From Gloeomargarita sp. SRBZ-1_bins_9 (lineage in GTDB: Bacteria > Cyanobacteriota > Cyanobacteriia > Gloeomargaritales > Gloeomargaritaceae), in assembly GCA_039794565.1 (NCBI GenBank), contig JAUQVX010000003.1, forward strand, positions 124,001 through 188,000: 64,000 bases of DNA, in the 5' to 3' direction. Under the pieces are notes generated by a model, which saw nothing but the letters and a program-made list of their open reading frames with translations, was not told where the DNA came from and ran no database searches. Shown here one piece after another: positions 2,639-10,508 of this stretch (positions are counted from its first letter, which is position 1; each line of letters starts with the position of its first letter). The translations under genes and the position numbers were made by a program.

Positions 2639-5600
2639 CTATTGCGGCACCATCTGCTGGAGCCATCCATAGAGCTGTTCCAATTGTTGACCAGGAGGCA
2701 GCGTCGCCAACCCCCGCACAAGAATCTTCCCCGGACTGTACACAAAACGGGAGTGGAGTTTGGGGGATAGTCGCTGCCGCAATTCCTGCCATGCCGGTTC
2801 CGCCATCGCCGTTTCCCACACCACATGGGGGGTCTCGGGACGAATGCGCTGAATACCGATTTGTTTGGCCAGCAATTTCACCCGCATAACCAACACCAAC
2901 TGCTGCACCGGCGGCGGTAGCTCCCCATACACCTGCTGCCATTGAGCAACCAGTTGGTCAATGTGGGCCTGGCTGTCGGCGGTGGCCAAATCCCGATAGG
3001 CTTGCAGCTTCAACTCCAAATTGGGCATGTAACTGGCGGGAATAAAGGCCGTGAGATTCAAGTCAATTTGCGTGTCATTGACGGTAGGAATCTGGCGCCC
3101 GCGCACTTCCTCGATGGCCTCCTGCAGCATTTCTAAGTACAAATCAAACCCGACGGCGGCCATGTGTCCCGACTGCTCCGGCCCCAGAATATCCCCGGCC
3201 CCGCGAATGTCCAAATCCCGCAGCGCCAACTGATACCCCGACCCCAGATGCGTGAATTCCTGAATGGCCTGCAGGCGAGCTTTGGCTTCATCGGTGAGCA
3301 CCTCCTCAGCCGGATAGGTCAACCAGGCATAGGCTTGGATACCCGTGCGCCCCACTCGCCCCCGCAGTTGATAAAGTTGCGCCAGGCCAAACCGGTGGGC
3401 ATCCTCCACAACGATGGTGTTGACGCGGGGAATGTCCAACCCCGATTCCACAATGGTGGTGCAGACCAAAATATCCGCCTCCCCATTGCTAAAAGCCAGC
3501 ATGGTCACCTCCAGCTCCTCCGGGGGCAATTGCCCGTGGGCCACCAGGATTTTGGCGTCCGGGAACATCTGCTGCAACAGGGTCACCCTGGCTCCCATGC
3601 CCTCAATGCGCGGCACCACGTAAAACACCTGCCCCCCCCGGTCCAACTCCTGGGCGATGGCAGCCCGTACCGTCTCCGGTTGGTAGGGCACCAAACGTGT
3701 CTTAATCGGGCGGCGGGTCGGGGGCGGCGTCGTAATTAAACTCATCTCCCGCAATCCCGACAGAGCCATCGAAAGGGTACGGGGAATCGGCGTCGCCGTC
3801 AGGGTCAACACATCCACGGACGTCTTCAGGGCCTTGATTTTTTCCTTGTGGTTGACCCCGAAGCGTTGCTCTTCGTCCACCACCAGCAACCCCAAGTCCC
3901 GAAACTGCACCTGGGAACCCAGCAACAAATGCGTGCCCACCACACAGTCAATTTCCCCCGTTTTCAACTTGGCGATGATCTGTTGGCGCTCCTGGGGACT
4001 GCGAAACCGGTTGAGCAGGGCAATGTGAATCGGATAGGGGGCAAAGCGCTCCTTTAAGGTGTGGTAGTGCTGCTGGGCCAGAATGGTCGTCGGCGCCAAA
4101 AAAGCCACCTGTTTGCCCGCCATTAACACCTTGAAAATGGCCCGAATCGCCACCTCGGTTTTGCCAAAGCCCACATCGCCGCAAATGAGCCGGTCCATGG
4201 GACGGGGAGATGCCAAATCGGCCTTGACCGCTTGGATGGCCTTGGCCTGGTCGGGGGTCAGGGGATAGGGGAAGGAATCCTCCAGCTCCTGCTGCCAGGG
4301 AGTATCGGGGGGATAGGGGGGGCGGGTCTGCTGGGCGCGCTTGGCATATAGCTCCAGCAAATTGACGGCCAATTTCTTCAGACTTTTGCGCACCTTTTCC
4401 CGGGTTTTTTCCCAGGTTTTGCTGGCCAGACGGTGGAGTTCCGGTTGACTTCCCCCCCCCCGATAGGGCGACAGCACCCCCACCTGGTCCACCGCCACCC
4501 GCAATTGCCCATCGGCGTACTGCAACACCAGGTACTCTCGCGTTTGCCCCCCCACCTCCAGGCGCTCCAAGCCCAGGAAACGCCCGCAGCCATGATGCCG
4601 GTGAATGACGTAGTCCCCCGGTTGCAGCCGGTTGGGGTCCAGCGCCAGCGCCTGGGTTGAACGGCGGCGGGATAGCAGCGTCGGAGTACCCACCCGGTGT
4701 TGGCCAAACAATTCCCGGTCAGTGAGCACCAGGAGATGTAACCGGGGCAACCACACCCCCTGGAGGTCCGCCAAGCCACTGTATTTCAAGGCGACGGGGA
4801 TGCCCTCGCGACCCAAGCGTTCGATGGCAGCCAAGTCCTGGGCATTGGGCACCACCTGCACCGGACAATCGTGTTCCTGTAAAACGGCAGCACAGCGGGC
4901 CGGTTGCGCCGATAAAATCCAGGTGCGACAGTGTTCCCGTTGTTGACGAATGAACTCGGCGATGGGGCCAAATTGGTGGGGATGGCGGGGAAGGGGACGC
5001 GCCTCCAGTTCTAAGCCCACACCTGCGCTCCATTCGTAGCAGTGGATTTGGAAATAGGCGGCCAGTTGTTCCTGTAGGGCCTCCCAATTCAGATGTAGGG
5101 CGGGGGAGTGGCCGGGCCACTGCTCCTGGGCGTGCTCCCACCAGCGCTGGTGATGCTGCCGGCACTGGAGCGGTTCATCGAGAACAACCAGGGTGTGGCC
5201 AGGTAAGTAGGCCAGCAGGGACGCCACTTCAGCAAACGCCTGCCCCAAAAACTGCCGGTAGCCGGTTAGATCGGGGGGCAAATGGGGGAGTTGCCAGCGC
5301 ACCAAGGCCCGATAGTCCACCGGCCCCACCCATACCTGTTCCACCGGCGCACGGGGGCGTTGGGTCTGGGGGTCCAATTCCCGTAGGCTTTCGAGGGTGT
5401 CGCCCCACCACTCCAGACGCACCGGCCACTCCGCTGTCACCGGATACACATCCACAATGTCCCCCCGCCGACCCCATTGCCCTTCAGCGGTCACCTGCTC
5501 CACCCGTTCATACCCCAGCGCCGTCAGCTTCTCCCCCAGGTGCTCCGGTGACAGACCATCCGCCGGGGTCAATGTCAGACCCAGGGCCGACCAGACCGCC

Positions 5601-6079: not shown

Positions 6080-7249
6080 TCAGTGCATCAAGCCCACCAA
6101 GTGCAGCGGTCCCCAGCCGGTCATCCATTCCACCAGCAGCGCCAAAAAGCCCAGCATGGCCAAGCGCCCGTTCCACACCTCCGCCGTCGGTGTCAGTCCC
6201 CAGGCCCAGCGCTCCTGTGGGTAAATCTTCACCGGCTTTTGGATGTTGATGACCTGGTTGAGCAACACCGGCGGGGCCATAGCCGCTTCCATGACCGCCT
6301 CGGCCAAGTCCTGGATAAAGCGGGGGTGGGTATTGAGTGCCGGCACCCGGTGAAAGTGAGTTATGCCGCTCTGGTGCGCTAGCTCCCGGTACTCCTGGTC
6401 AATTTCCTGCAACGTCTCAATGTGTTCCGACACAAAACTGATGGGAATCACCAGCAAATCCCGCACCCCTTGGGCTGCCAGCGCCGGAATCACCTCCTCT
6501 GTATAGGGTTTGAGCCACTCCACCGGCCCCACCCGACTCTGATAGGCCAACGTATAGCGATTGGGACGGTTCAACGCCCGCACGATCAAAGCCACACAGA
6601 CCTCGATCTGCTCCTGGTAGGGGTCCCCCTCCTGGTCCACATAGCTGCGGGGCACCCCATGGGCGCTAAACAACAGATGGACGCAGTCGGGGTCCGGTAA
6701 AGCAGCGAGCGCCTGTTGAATCAAATCCACCATCGCTTCGATATAACCCCGGCGCTGGTACCAGTAGGGAATCACCGTGTGCTCGATCTGAGCCAGATAC
6801 CCCCCTGACCGCCGCAGGCGCTCCAACAAGCGCAAACTCGACCCACTGGTGCTGATGGAGTACTGGGGATACAAAGGCAAAATCACCAACTTATCAATCC
6901 CATCCCGCTCGATTTGCGCCAGCGCCTCCTCCGTAAAAGGGTGCCAGTAACGCATCCCCACATACACCCGCGCCGGCTGCCCCATCTGGTGTAACTGTTG
7001 CTCAAGGGCCTGGGCCTGCTGTTCCGTGATGCGTCGAATTGGAGACCCCCCCCCAATCCGTCGGTAATTTTCACTGGAGCGCCGGTGCCGCAGCGTCGCA
7101 ATCAACCAGGCCAGGGGCTTTTGCAACCAGGGAAACGGCAACCGGATGATCTCCGGGTCGGCAAACAAGTTATACAGGAAAGGCCGCACATCCTCCAACC
7201 GCTCCGGCCCCCCCAGATTGAGCAATAAAACACCCAAGCGCTGGCCCAC
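6080..7249 (-). CDS. hemH: Ferrochelatase with C-terminal chlorophyll-binding (Hlip-like) helix
   Basis: 389 residues. Inserts Fe2+ into protoporphyrin IX, the last step of haem synthesis. The start [16 protein letters not shown] and the SAHGVP motif (about residue 200) are ferrochelatase hallmarks; the core ends near residue 325. The last about 45 residues hold [14 protein letters not shown], the chlorophyll a/b-binding-like motif found fused to ferrochelatase in cyanobacteria and plastids, where it is thought to couple haem and chlorophyll supply. A run of nine C at 7046-7054 lies inside the gene. It is the last gene of the minus-strand run 10508-6080, 68 bases behind the eRF1-like gene. 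An AT-rich stretch just upstream (7265-7300) could carry its own promoter. Confidence 0.96.
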
Positions 7250-7317
7250 GACCCCTGCCCCTAGCTGAAAAATTTTTACATTTATTTAAGTCTAGCTTAA
7301 CTCCCCGTCGTTGCCAG

Positions 7318-8535
7318 TTACCAGCGCAGGAGCGCCGCCATACCTCCCATCTCCTGGAGCAACCGTTCCTCAGCAGGTCCCCGCACAAACTCCAATTCCG
7401 CCCCGTAACTGGCCGCCAGATCAAGAACATGGTCCCGCAGGGGGACTGCTTGGGGTTCCGGGCACACCACCTGAGCCACCTCCAGCGTTGCCGCCACAAA
7501 CCCCTCCTCCGGGCAGCGCCAGATAGTCATATCCAGAGACCAGGGCACAATCCAGCGCCGCACCCGCCCCAATTGCAATGCATCCAGCACCGGGTCAATC
7601 CCCCACAGCCCTGGTTGCTCCTGGACCTGCTGCAAAAGCGCCAGTTCCTGCTGCCGTTCCGCCTCATCCAGCACCGGTTGCACCCGCCGCCAGATCTGTC
7701 CAACGGCTTCCTGATGCGCTTCCGGCCACAGGGGTAAGCGGCTCACCACCCGCTGTTGCACCCGTCGGCTCAGATAACCCTCGAAATGTCCCGTCTGCCA
7801 CTGCTCCCCAATCAGCACCAGCCGGCCGATACCCAACCGTTCCACCGCCTGATCCACCATGTGCGCCAGCCGCCGATAGAACGTGTGCAGCCAGGCATCC
7901 ACCCGCGCCGCCGTGCGCTCCTGCAGCGACAACTTATCGCAACGTCCCCCTGGCGTAGCCGACCGCGCCCGCCACGTCGCCGTAATCTGCTGGCTTAGGG
8001 TCTGGAGTTGCTGCCATTCGGCTGGGGAAATGTCTGTCAGCAAATCCTCCACTTCCCGAATCTCATCCAAAAACACCTCAAAAAAGCGCCAGCGCGCCCC
8101 CTCCAGCAACAGAATCCCCGTACGTTCGTACTCATCCACCGCAAACCACAAAGGCGTCAAATAGGGCGCACCATAGCGGGCCTCCACCCGTCCCCGGCGC
8201 AGGTCCACCACCGGCAGCTCCACCTGCAAATCCAGCCGTTCCGTGTACAGGGTGCCATGGGCGTCCCGATGGGCAAATAGCACCAACGTCTGGGCCTGGG
8301 GCCGTTCCGCTTCCAGCAGGGCATACACCTGGTCGTACAGGGGCTGGTCCCGTTTGCCGTGACGGTCCCGGATCTCCGGCAGATGTTTCAATGTCTGGTC
8401 AATGCGCTTGAACCAGGCACCGTTGGCGTTTTCCGGTTTGGCCGGATTCACATTGGCATACAGAGACAACACCCCATCCGTCACCTGGGCCGACCACTGC
8501 CGCAACCGAGCCAATTGCGTCTCTACCGCCAGCAT
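7318..8535 (-). CDS. Bacterial eRF1-like (baeRF/VLRF1-type) protein with GGR in place of GGQ
   Basis: 405 residues. The layout follows archaeo-eukaryotic release factor 1. An N-terminal domain starts VTDGVLSLYANVNPAKPENA. A middle RNase-H-like domain has TPGGRCDKLSLQER (GGR at residues 196-198, DNA 7942-7950) followed by a long basic helix and RLVLIGEQW. The C-terminal L7Ae-like domain ends LLQEMGGMAALLRW. In true release factors the aligned loop is GGQ, whose Gln-containing tip triggers peptidyl-tRNA hydrolysis; here Gln is Arg. Bacterial families of this kind are proposed to act in ribosome rescue or translational stress. The function is inferred. Its neighbour carries an HPF-like ribosome-binding domain, which supports a ribosome role. 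Confidence 0.72.
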   Translation of the reverse strand: MLAVETQLARLRQWSAQVTDGVLSLYANVNPAKPENANGAWFKRIDQTLKHLPEIRDRHGKRDQPLYDQVYALLEAERPQAQTLVLFAHRDAHGTLYTERLDLQVELPVVDLRRGRVEARYGAPYLTPLWFAVDEYERTGILLLEGARWRFFEVFLDEIREVEDLLTDISPAEWQQLQTLSQQITATWRARSATPGGRCDKLSLQERTAARVDAWLHTFYRRLAHMVDQAVERLGIGRLVLIGEQWQTGHFEGYLSRRVQQRVVSRLPLWPEAHQEAVGQIWRRVQPVLDEAERQQELALLQQVQEQPGLWGIDPVLDALQLGRVRRWIVPWSLDMTIWRCPEEGFVAATLEVAQVVCPEPQAVPLRDHVLDLAASYGAELEFVRGPAEERLLQEMGGMAALLRW

Positions 8536-8583
8536 CCCTTTCCCTCCACCGGCAACGCCGTAATTTTCTATTAGAGCACATTT

Positions 8584-9678
8584 TCACGATGACGCCGGCG
8601 GGGGAGCCAACTGAGCTAAATCCGGCAGCGTGTCCCCCTCGCGCACAATACCTGCATCCTGTAGCCGCGCCAGCACAAAACTTTCCGCCCGCTCCAACCC
8701 CAGCTTGACCTGACTTTCCGGCTGATCAAGGATGTCGGCCACTGCCTCCAGAGTCAACCCATCCAGGTGCACCAGTTGAAACGCCCGTCGCCACAACACC
8801 GGCAAATCCTTGAGCACATCCAGGGCGTAGGCCTGCTCCCCCGTTTGCGCCAAAGACAGCCCCGGACCAGGCCCCAATTCCAGCAGCGCCGGCAATGGTT
8901 CCTTAACACTTAACACATCCGCCAGGCACAGGGTGTCATCCGGCTGGTAGAACGCGTAAAACTCCTCCTCCACCATGGCCTCCGCCTCGTCCTTGGGTTC
9001 GTGCCATTCGACGGGCATTTCCAGGGGTACCGTTTGGCCGTAGTGGCGACTGGCCCGCCGTTCCCGGTCCAAGATATGGAATCCCTGGCGCAGCAGGTGA
9101 CGAAACGCCTGTTCCCGGGACCAATCCGGCTGCCAAGCGGCCTGGGTCACCAAAAACGCCTCATCCACCACGTCATGCAAGCTGGGGTCATCCTTGGGCA
9201 GGTCACCCGCCGCTCGCAGGTAGGCTATCTCCCGCCGCAGGATCACCTCCACCTGGGGCAGGAGCGACACCAGCATCCCCTGGGCCTGGGGCCGGATTAC
9301 CTGCTCCGTGACCTGAGTCTTGAGCTGCCGCAGCCGTTCCCGTCTTACCCGCCGTTTGTACTGGTCCTGGACCTGCAAGCGGGCAAAGTGCCGTTTGACC
9401 TCCTGAAACAACGCCTTGGCCAGGTGTTGCGCTAAAGCCAAGAGTTCCTCCTGCTCCACCGTCACCGCCACGATGCGTTTGCCGGGAAGATAGACATGGG
9501 CCATAGCCCGAAAGCCGTGGGGAGCTTGGCGTTGCAACACCACGTGCACCGGCGCCGTAGCTGCCCCATGCCGTTCCAGCCAAGGACCCAACCGCCTCCC
9601 CAAGGCCTGTTGCAGGGCCAAGGGCCACTGGGGCACATCCGAACCGCTCAGCCCTCGGTAGAAATAACGCACATTCAT
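8584..9678 (-). CDS. HPF/RaiA-like domain fused to sigma-70-like regions
   Basis: 364 residues from ATG 9678, preceded by AGGTGG; a TTG at 9702 in the same frame is less convincing. Residues 1-100 look like a ribosome hibernation factor: a VHVVLQR strand, then GFRAMAHVYLPGKRIVAVTV and a helix ending LFQEVKRHFARL. Residues 135-205 resemble sigma region 2 (VILRREIAYLRAAGDLPKDD, then DVVDEAFLVTQAAW). Residues 285-343 resemble sigma region 4 (DLPVLWRRAFQLVHLDGLTL and EAVADILDQPESQVK, an HTH). An acidic linker lies between. The fusion could link ribosome state to transcription, or the sigma-like part may have been repurposed. It begins 17 bases after the M48 gene ends and is followed after 48 bases by the eRF1-like gene, so the three are probably co-transcribed. 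Confidence 0.65.
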   Translation of the reverse strand: MNVRYFYRGLSGSDVPQWPLALQQALGRRLGPWLERHGAATAPVHVVLQRQAPHGFRAMAHVYLPGKRIVAVTVEQEELLALAQHLAKALFQEVKRHFARLQVQDQYKRRVRRERLRQLKTQVTEQVIRPQAQGMLVSLLPQVEVILRREIAYLRAAGDLPKDDPSLHDVVDEAFLVTQAAWQPDWSREQAFRHLLRQGFHILDRERRASRHYGQTVPLEMPVEWHEPKDEAEAMVEEEFYAFYQPDDTLCLADVLSVKEPLPALLELGPGPGLSLAQTGEQAYALDVLKDLPVLWRRAFQLVHLDGLTLEAVADILDQPESQVKLGLERAESFVLARLQDAGIVREGDTLPDLAQLAPPPASS

Positions 9679-9695
9679 GGCCGCCACCTGTTTGC

Positions 9696-10508
9696 TCAGC
9701 AACCCTGCGCCAGCAACTGCCGGTACGCCGGGCTTTGGCTCCAGCGGTCAATTTCCTGGGCGCGTAACACTGGCACCGGATGGGTCAAAGGCAACACCCG
9801 CGTCAGCTTCAGCCAGTTCCAGCCCTGCTGGTCATAAGCCCGCGCCTGGGCCAAAAAAGCCTCCACATGCAAATCCGGCACCAGTTTGGGGGACCCCCCC
9901 GCCAGTTTCATCAGCACACTCAGCACCACCTGGACATCCTGGGCCACCAGCAACGCCGCCCGGTCACAACTTAACTCCGCGCAGCGCAGCCACTGGAGCA
10001 AGGACGCCTGCAACCCCTGGGCCAGCCACAACCCCCAGTTGGGAATCTGACCCGCTGCCAGCACCAGCAAATTCGCTAAGGTCAAATACACTCCGTGCTC
10101 GCACTTCAAATGCCCCAACTCATGGGCCAGGACCGCCTGAATCTCCGCCGGCGTCAGCAACTCCACCAGGCTGGTGTGCAGGACAATAAACGGCTTGTGA
10201 CCCCGCACCGCCAAAGTATAGGCATTGGGCTGGGGATGTTGCCGGACATACAACTGGGGGACCTCCATGTCCAAAATGCGGCAGGCCTCCAGCAACAGTT
10301 CGTACAACCAGGACAACTGCCTAGGCCCCACCTGCACCGCCCCGGCCATGTTTTCCAGATAAAACCACTCCTGAGCCGCCGTACCCAGGGTCAGGCGGAG
10401 CAACATATCCAGGCCGGGAATTTGCTGGAGCGCCCGTGTAGCCTCCTGGTCCCAGGGATGGCGAAACTGCTCCGCCCGCAACCCCAGCAATTGCCGCTTT
10501 TGTCCCAT
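9696..10508 (-). CDS. M48-family zinc metallopeptidase
   Basis: 270 residues. The zinc motif HELGH is at about residues 129-133 (AVLAHELGHLKCEHG) and the third ligand is probably E178 in RCAELSCDRAALL, as in HtpX/Ste24-type peptidases. Hydrophobic segments around 140-170 suggest membrane association, weaker than in HtpX. The substrate is unknown; the family is commonly used for protein quality control. First gene of the minus-strand run that continues into the HPF-sigma fusion, the eRF1-like gene and hemH, and divergent from the sugar permease across 142 bases. Confidence 0.85.
   Translation of the reverse strand: MGQKRQLLGLRAEQFRHPWDQEATRALQQIPGLDMLLRLTLGTAAQEWFYLENMAGAVQVGPRQLSWLYELLLEACRILDMEVPQLYVRQHPQPNAYTLAVRGHKPFIVLHTSLVELLTPAEIQAVLAHELGHLKCEHGVYLTLANLLVLAAGQIPNWGLWLAQGLQASLLQWLRCAELSCDRAALLVAQDVQVVLSVLMKLAGGSPKLVPDLHVEAFLAQARAYDQQGWNWLKLTRVLPLTHPVPVLRAQEIDRWSQSPAYRQLLAQGC

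Follow-up and report, generated by a model that had tools for sequence, protein, structure and literature searches.

Gene content of the locus

The window analysed here is a 64,000-nucleotide (nt) stretch of the Gloeomargarita sp. SRBZ-1_bins_9 genome (contig JAUQVX010000003.1, positions 124,001 to 188,000). On its minus strand lie a gene for a fusion of an HPF/RaiA-type ribosome hibernation domain with a sigma-factor-like domain and, directly downstream, a gene for a bacterial homologue of eRF1 (baeRF) of the Balon type; the two are flanked by an M48 zinc metallopeptidase gene and by hemH (Table 1). Genome comparison indicates that fusion and baeRF are an acquired two-gene module set between old resident genes, and not part of a three-gene unit. 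The fusion is related to orf11 of the transmissible locus of stress tolerance (tLST), also called the locus of heat resistance (LHR).

A sequence-only reading of this region had proposed a ribosome-stress module of three genes, transcribed together and ending with hemH. The order, strand and spacing of the three adjacent genes were confirmed, with gaps of 17 nt between M48 and fusion, 48 nt between fusion and baeRF, and a further 68 nt between baeRF and hemH. The identities of the peptidase and of the eRF1-like protein are likewise firm (Table 1), and the fusion gene has TTG at 9702 as an alternative open start. The single transcript finds no support in the sequence: no sigma70 promoter was found at the locus, terminator-like sites occur there at chance frequency, and the leader of hemH is conserved. 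Because the locus also gave no Rfam match, and because promoters and terminators were uninformative in the manner just described, operon limits are unreadable from the sequence.

Table 1. Features of the locus. Positions are those of the window or, where stated, residues of the fusion protein; the last row refers to two genus relatives.
Feature	Position	Strand	Remarks
M48 zinc metallopeptidase	9696-10508	minus	HELGH motif; Pfam M48 7.5e-19
HPF/RaiA-ECF-sigma-like fusion	8584-9678	minus	364 amino acids; start ATG 9678; relative of tLST/LHR orf11
HPF/RaiA-like N-terminal domain of fusion	9304-9678	minus	residues 1-125; long basic second helix; net charge +12
Degenerate ECF-sigma-like part of fusion	8656-9291	minus	Foldseek to ECF sigmas; recognition-helix motif absent
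Region-2-like helices	fusion residues 130-211
Low-confidence linker with QPD motif	fusion residues 215-274
Region-4-like helix-turn-helix	fusion residues 276-341
Balon-type bacterial eRF1 homologue	7318-8535	minus	three-domain, without GGQ; Pfam baeRF_family10 5.4e-25
hemH leader	7250-7317	minus	AT-rich stretch TTAAGCTAGACTTAAATAAATGTAAAAAT; kept in six genus relatives; hemH-proximal insertion edge
hemH (ferrochelatase)	6080-7249	minus	Pfam ferrochelatase 8.9e-120; old neighbour outside the module
Intact baeRF of G148 (L116) and G147 (L117)	2744-3958 in each

Domain architecture of the fusion protein

The window sequence alone was insufficient to recognise the fusion. Against Pfam it gave only a weak sigma region 4 match below the curated cut-off, and no match to S30AE (PF02482). 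The HPF-sigma architecture, as named in the sequence-only reading, was established through relatives, family profiles and structure comparison with AlphaFold and Foldseek; all domain counts, motif and charge figures given below rest on 26 aligned members of the fusion family. Pfam Ribosomal_S30AE (PF02482) matches 19 of these 26 homologues (best E-value 5.3e-9), and the N-terminal part of the family profile retrieves canonical HPF proteins at 1e-11 to 3e-7, the window genome's own HPF among them. The AlphaFold model of the window protein (predicted local distance difference test, pLDDT, 80) has the β-α-β-β-β-α fold of HPF followed by helical segments, and in Foldseek the N-terminal domain matches protein Y of T. 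thermophilus (2ywq; target-normalized TM-score, TMt, 0.79) and E. coli HPF (TMt 0.70). Foldseek E-values for the fusion range from 3e-3 to about 0.1, none being below 0.001, with probability near 1. N-terminal domains are basic across the family, with net charges of +3 to +14.

The C-terminal part leads to extracytoplasmic function (ECF) sigma factors by several routes. Sigma70_r4_2 of Pfam matches 22 of the 26 homologues, the C-terminal part of the family profile retrieves ECF sigmas of the RpoE type, and Foldseek returns ECF sigmas, including region 4 of sigmaE (2h27, TMt 0.85) and ECF sigmas bound to RNA polymerase. Two relatives (L084 and L087) pass the TIGR02937 sigma70-ECF cut-off over a span that covers regions 2 and 4, and both carry a yfiA match alongside. 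Taken together, profiles and predicted folds indicate that the window protein does combine an HPF/RaiA domain with an ECF-sigma-like domain, the latter degenerate.

The degeneracy concerns DNA recognition. The recognition-helix motif GT[VIL]x[ST]R, which serves -35 recognition, is kept in none of the 26 members, and the mean charge of the recognition helix is -0.9 in the family versus +4 for the three ECF helices recovered as references. C-terminal parts are acidic throughout, at -12 to -34 (-19 for residues 126-364 of the window fusion). The fusion shares its fold and a weak sequence match with ECF sigmas and with the sigma-like domain of PhyR, but differs from them in its missing -35 motif, its strong acidity, its fusion to HPF and the QPD motif of its linker. 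This last motif, E-F/Y-x-Q-P-D-D/E, lies between sigma regions 2 and 4 and is nearly invariant in the 26 relatives (fusion residues about 241-252, window about 8923-8958). The sigma-like part, having no -35 recognition motif, more likely makes protein contacts. The absence of that motif from all 26 relatives also speaks against the earlier suggestion that the peptidase frees a sigma-like part for use.

Two other accounts of the C-terminal part have to be weighed here. It could be a working alternative sigma of unusual promoter preference, with the HPF domain either sequestering it on idle ribosomes or sensing such ribosomes, so that stress genes would be transcribed when ribosomes are released or stalled. 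Both regions 2 and 4 are recognisable, the TIGR02937 passes and the polymerase-bound Foldseek matches fit, and alternative sigma70 genes have been noted in Balon operons (PMC10901736); against this stand the universal lack of the -35 motif, the charge of the helix and of the whole C-terminal part, and the fact that we noticed no gene for a cognate anti-sigma factor next to the pair. We regard a working sigma as unlikely. A little less improbable, though still a minority view, is a decoy of the PhyR kind, in which the sigma-like domain, by mimicking a sigma, would divert an anti-sigma factor and would be made available at times set by the HPF domain. Pfam PhyR_sigma-like matches 18 of the 26 relatives and PhyR_sigma2 three, PhyR structures are among the Foldseek fold matches, and DNA-recognition residues are lost as such a decoy would have it; yet the fusion has no receiver domain, no NepR-like gene was noticed nearby, and the PhyR matches are weaker than those to ordinary ECF sigmas. 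The decoy is also one of the two forms that our preferred explanation can take.

The eRF1-like partner

The protein encoded at 7318-8535 matches the MSMEG_1130 ribosome hibernation factor family of NCBIfam over its full length (3e-17), at 62.7 bits against an equivalog cut-off of 480, and is therefore a relative of that family and not that orthologue. Foldseek aligns its model with aRF1/eRF1 and with Balon (8v9l, 8v9j) at about 2e-11 over 390-450 columns. PDB sequence searches were uninformative, for this protein as for the fusion. In the alignment, GGR or GGS replaces the catalytic GGQ in the window protein and its pair-bearing relatives, the aligned cyanobacterial baeRF relatives also lack GGQ, and the NIKS motif is absent from the window sequence.

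These replacements bear on the label of release factor that the sequence-only reading had used. Family 10 of the baeRF proteins has been reported to retain a conserved catalytic glutamine (PMC6514570), and by Pfam the window protein belongs to that family, which would favour an active alternative release or rescue factor. However, the window baeRF and the pair-bearing members have no such glutamine in their GGR/GGS loop, and the full-length match is to a hibernation family. We rejected the active release factor as a candidate and hold it to be distinctly improbable; the motif comparison and the predicted fold indicate instead that the protein is a relative of Balon-type hibernation factors, for which a non-catalytic role would be expected.

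Pairing of fusion and baeRF across phyla

Scanning genome contigs with the single fusion sequence returned nothing; an alignment-based query was needed and gave 80 fusion loci. Three further genomes, from two phyla other than Cyanobacteriota, have the fusion next to a baeRF gene. In Gaiellaceae KatS3mg012 (L031) the fusion precedes baeRF on the same strand at a distance of 3 nt, the same order as in the window; in Hydrogenophaga (L037) and Tibeticola (L039) baeRF comes first, on the same strand and about 36 nt from the fusion. Adjacency has thus survived an inversion of gene order across three phyla, at 45-60% identity. Stress genes lie around the pair, namely HdeD in Hydrogenophaga, HdeD and YfdX in Tibeticola, and KefB-like and ClpK-like genes in Gaiellaceae, and a cardiolipin-synthase-like phospholipase D gene is found near the pair (shown for Tibeticola). 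Balon genes most often adjoin raiA, and Balon binds ribosomes jointly with RaiA (PMC10901736); that baeRF genes neighbour HPF genes was noted in 2019 (PMC6514570). That fusion and eRF1-like protein form a ribosome-stress pair, a part of the earlier proposal, is therefore supported by recurrent adjacency in two gene orders and by the membership of both in families of ribosome hibernation (PMC10901736, PMC6514570).

Within cyanobacteria the linkage is not conserved, and we rejected it as a general feature of the phylum. The fusion occurs in one of eight Gloeomargaritales, and among the 146 cyanobacterial genomes sampled no other fusion was seen beyond short sigma-only matches. Six of the 146, the window genome included, have baeRF-family matches; in four other cyanobacteria (L110-L113) the baeRF is distant (24-26% identity), and the flanks read hold neither an HPF-like gene nor a fusion. 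The conserved neighbourhood expected by the earlier reading accordingly stands for the pair between phyla but fails for the pair inside cyanobacteria, and fails for the peptidase.

Insertion between the M48 gene and hemH

Genus relatives of the window genome show how the locus may have been assembled. Four that have neither gene (G085, G146, G149 and G150) have M48 directly adjoining hemH. In two others, G147 and G148, whose hemH is 90% identical to that of the window, the arrangement is M48-baeRF-hemH, with an intact baeRF at 85% identity and the fusion absent from the locus and from the whole genome. Among the genus relatives compared, the full order M48-fusion-baeRF-hemH is found in the window genome only. 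Either the pair came in together and the fusion was later lost in G147 and G148, or the two genes entered in two steps. GC content, overall and at third codon positions (GC3), is equal in the pair and its neighbours, so that composition gives no sign of transfer and the evidence for it consists of synteny and distribution.

The M48 gene, which the sequence-only reading had counted as part of the module, is probably no member, to judge from its distribution. Most of the sampled cyanobacteria have an orthologue at 57-82% identity, whether or not they carry the pair, and no M48 of the window type was found near any of the 80 fusion loci in other genomes, the pair-bearing Gaiellaceae, Hydrogenophaga and Tibeticola loci among them. 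We therefore rejected it as a module gene, as a conserved resident that adjoins hemH where the insertion is lacking. The same observations bear on the cleavage model of the earlier reading, in which M48 cuts the fusion and frees its sigma-like part upon ribosome stalling. The 17-nt gap on a common strand would suit such a model, as would the M48 gene (HtpX-type) of tLST islands that bear orf11, but this tLST gene is of another subfamily, with 31% identity across 52 residues, and with the peptidase resident irrespective of the fusion we judge cleavage to be extremely unlikely.

The ferrochelatase gene is likewise an old neighbour. Its AT-rich leader is conserved in six genus relatives whether M48 or baeRF lies upstream, which makes a separate hemH promoter probable, and hemH too was rejected as a module member. 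In itself, the leader (7250-7317) resembles a hemH promoter or regulatory element.

Kinship with orf11 of heat-resistance islands

A tblastn search of plasmids with the fusion returned relatives of approximately 41% identity over 96% of its length, and 255 plasmid records, mostly from Klebsiella, Enterobacter, Acinetobacter and E. coli, reach at least 80% query coverage; overall, relatives are 41-46% identical over more than 90% of the length. A phage search gave no match. The E. coli AW1.7 relative of the fusion is a hypothetical gene flanked by hdeD-GI and trx-GI, namely orf11 of tLST/LHR, of whose product the literature says no more than that it resembles no protein of known function. The window baeRF had no match in plasmids, and that of Tibeticola had only a distant Deinococcus match.

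In the tree, the fusions of the window, Gaiellaceae, Hydrogenophaga and Tibeticola form one group with tLST orf11 (support 100/99). The tLST branch is nested inside the pair-bearing group, where it pairs with the Gaiellaceae fusion at 91/88. By parsimony this placement makes the pair ancestral and has tLST losing its Balon partner, an order of events that four pair-bearing rows can only make suggestive. Same family and same architecture notwithstanding, the two settings differ: tLST lacks baeRF, and the window fusion lacks the other tLST genes. We tested the set of sHsp20, ClpK, YfdX, HdeD, orf11, Trx, KefB, PsiE, HtpX and DegP together, and only the relative of orf11 is present in the window stretch, flanked by M48, hemH and mfd; the locus was therefore rejected as a tLST.

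Among the 80 fusion loci, a matching sHsp20 gene is present in 59, HdeD in 48 and ClpK in 45. Relatives in Caballeronia and Paraburkholderia (L008 and L043-L056) lie with small heat shock protein (sHsp) genes, other tLST genes being absent, a second stress-island context; dnaK-like and groEL-like reading frames are also near the relative in L008. In the plasmids L009 and L010 and in most alphaproteobacterial loci among L057-L090, fusion relatives stand beside ClpK-like and HdeD genes. The two plasmids annotate their relatives as 'sigma-70 family RNA polymerase sigma factor' and 'flagellar biosynthesis protein FliA', and the HPF domain is missed.

A proposed hibernation cassette

We favour, with moderate confidence, a reading in which fusion and baeRF form a two-gene cassette for ribosome hibernation, acquired by horizontal transfer. 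During heat stress or a related stress, the HPF domain would bind in the 30S channel for mRNA and tRNA on idle ribosomes, whose A site the Balon-type protein would fill with no hydrolysis of peptidyl-tRNA; with both proteins bound, as with RaiA and Balon, the ribosomes would be blocked and protected. We infer the two binding positions from homology and from the published pairing of RaiA with Balon. The acidic sigma-like tail, its -35 recognition lost, would work through protein contacts, either docking on the RNA polymerase core by its region-2-like helices or titrating an anti-sigma factor. In either form, transcription would be coupled to the parking of ribosomes.

Several observations weigh against the cassette. 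Known pair-bearing genomes number only four, two of them near-identical at the locus, and the Gaiellaceae baeRF (L031, 9141-10583) is frame-shifted in its metagenome-assembled genome, through sequencing error or decay. The AlphaFold model of the eRF1-like protein is of low confidence (pLDDT 66). The pair is not obligate, since baeRF stands intact in the two closest relatives although these have no fusion; the window genome also encodes a canonical HPF, and G147 and G148 may use one of that kind. Nor does orf11 have a baeRF beside it in tLST, and it is not among the LHR deletions that lower heat or chlorine resistance in E. coli MG1655 (PMC8407380), so that any role of orf11 there would not be in acute survival. 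Effects of hibernation factors typically become visible only after extended stress (PMC10901736).

It is also conceivable that the pair is a passenger, two genes linked only by a recent common transfer and having no joint function. Occurrence is patchy, the fusion being present in one of eight Gloeomargaritales and in one of 249 genomes related to the Gaiellaceae one, and baeRF in one of 101 relatives of Tibeticola; the genes are moreover separable, as the two close relatives show. Maintenance of adjacency through order inversion at the divergence given above, and agreement with the known RaiA-Balon pairing (PMC10901736), make this explanation improbable in our view, and we retain the cassette. 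A bolder form of it has the fusion tie core RNA polymerase, held by the region-2-like helices with no promoter binding, to a ribosome blocked by HPF and occupied by Balon, as a single-chain coupled hibernation factor found today on heat-resistance islands of Enterobacteriaceae without its Balon partner. We consider this form unlikely.

Relation to known systems and significance

The closest known counterpart is the Balon/RaiA pair (Psychrobacter Balon; mycobacterial MSMEG_1130 and Rv2629), in which an eRF1-type protein without GGQ is likewise encoded beside an HPF/RaiA-type gene, with stress genes around. In the window, by contrast, RaiA is replaced by the HPF-sigma-like fusion, and the Balon-type protein scores far below NCBIfam equivalog cut-offs. 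Other systems show partial likeness. Archaeal HibA, where HPF/RaiA is fused to a CBS module rather than to a sigma-like domain, shows that HPF domains become fused to other modules (PMC13324472). In E. coli, silencing of the transcription apparatus is linked to ribosome hibernation, both kinds of hibernation being coupled through the separate, co-regulated proteins Rsd and RMF/HPF (PMC6904343), whereas the window may hold both functions in one chain.

The Balon-RaiA operon type and baeRF-HPF neighbourhoods (2019) were thus known already. New are the replacement of RaiA by an HPF-sigma fusion, the kinship of this fusion with tLST orf11, and the place of the tLST branch inside the Balon-paired group. 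A literature search, whose coverage did not extend to most subscription journals or to any bioRxiv preprints, found no description of such an HPF-sigma fusion. The fusion is a concrete example in which a hibernation domain is joined to a sigma-like domain. For orf11, carried on plasmids of Klebsiella, Enterobacter, E. coli and Acinetobacter, it supplies a domain architecture, together with a possible part in ribosome hibernation that can be tested. It further suggests that heat-resistance islands derive from environmental stress cassettes in which a Balon-type factor was formerly present.

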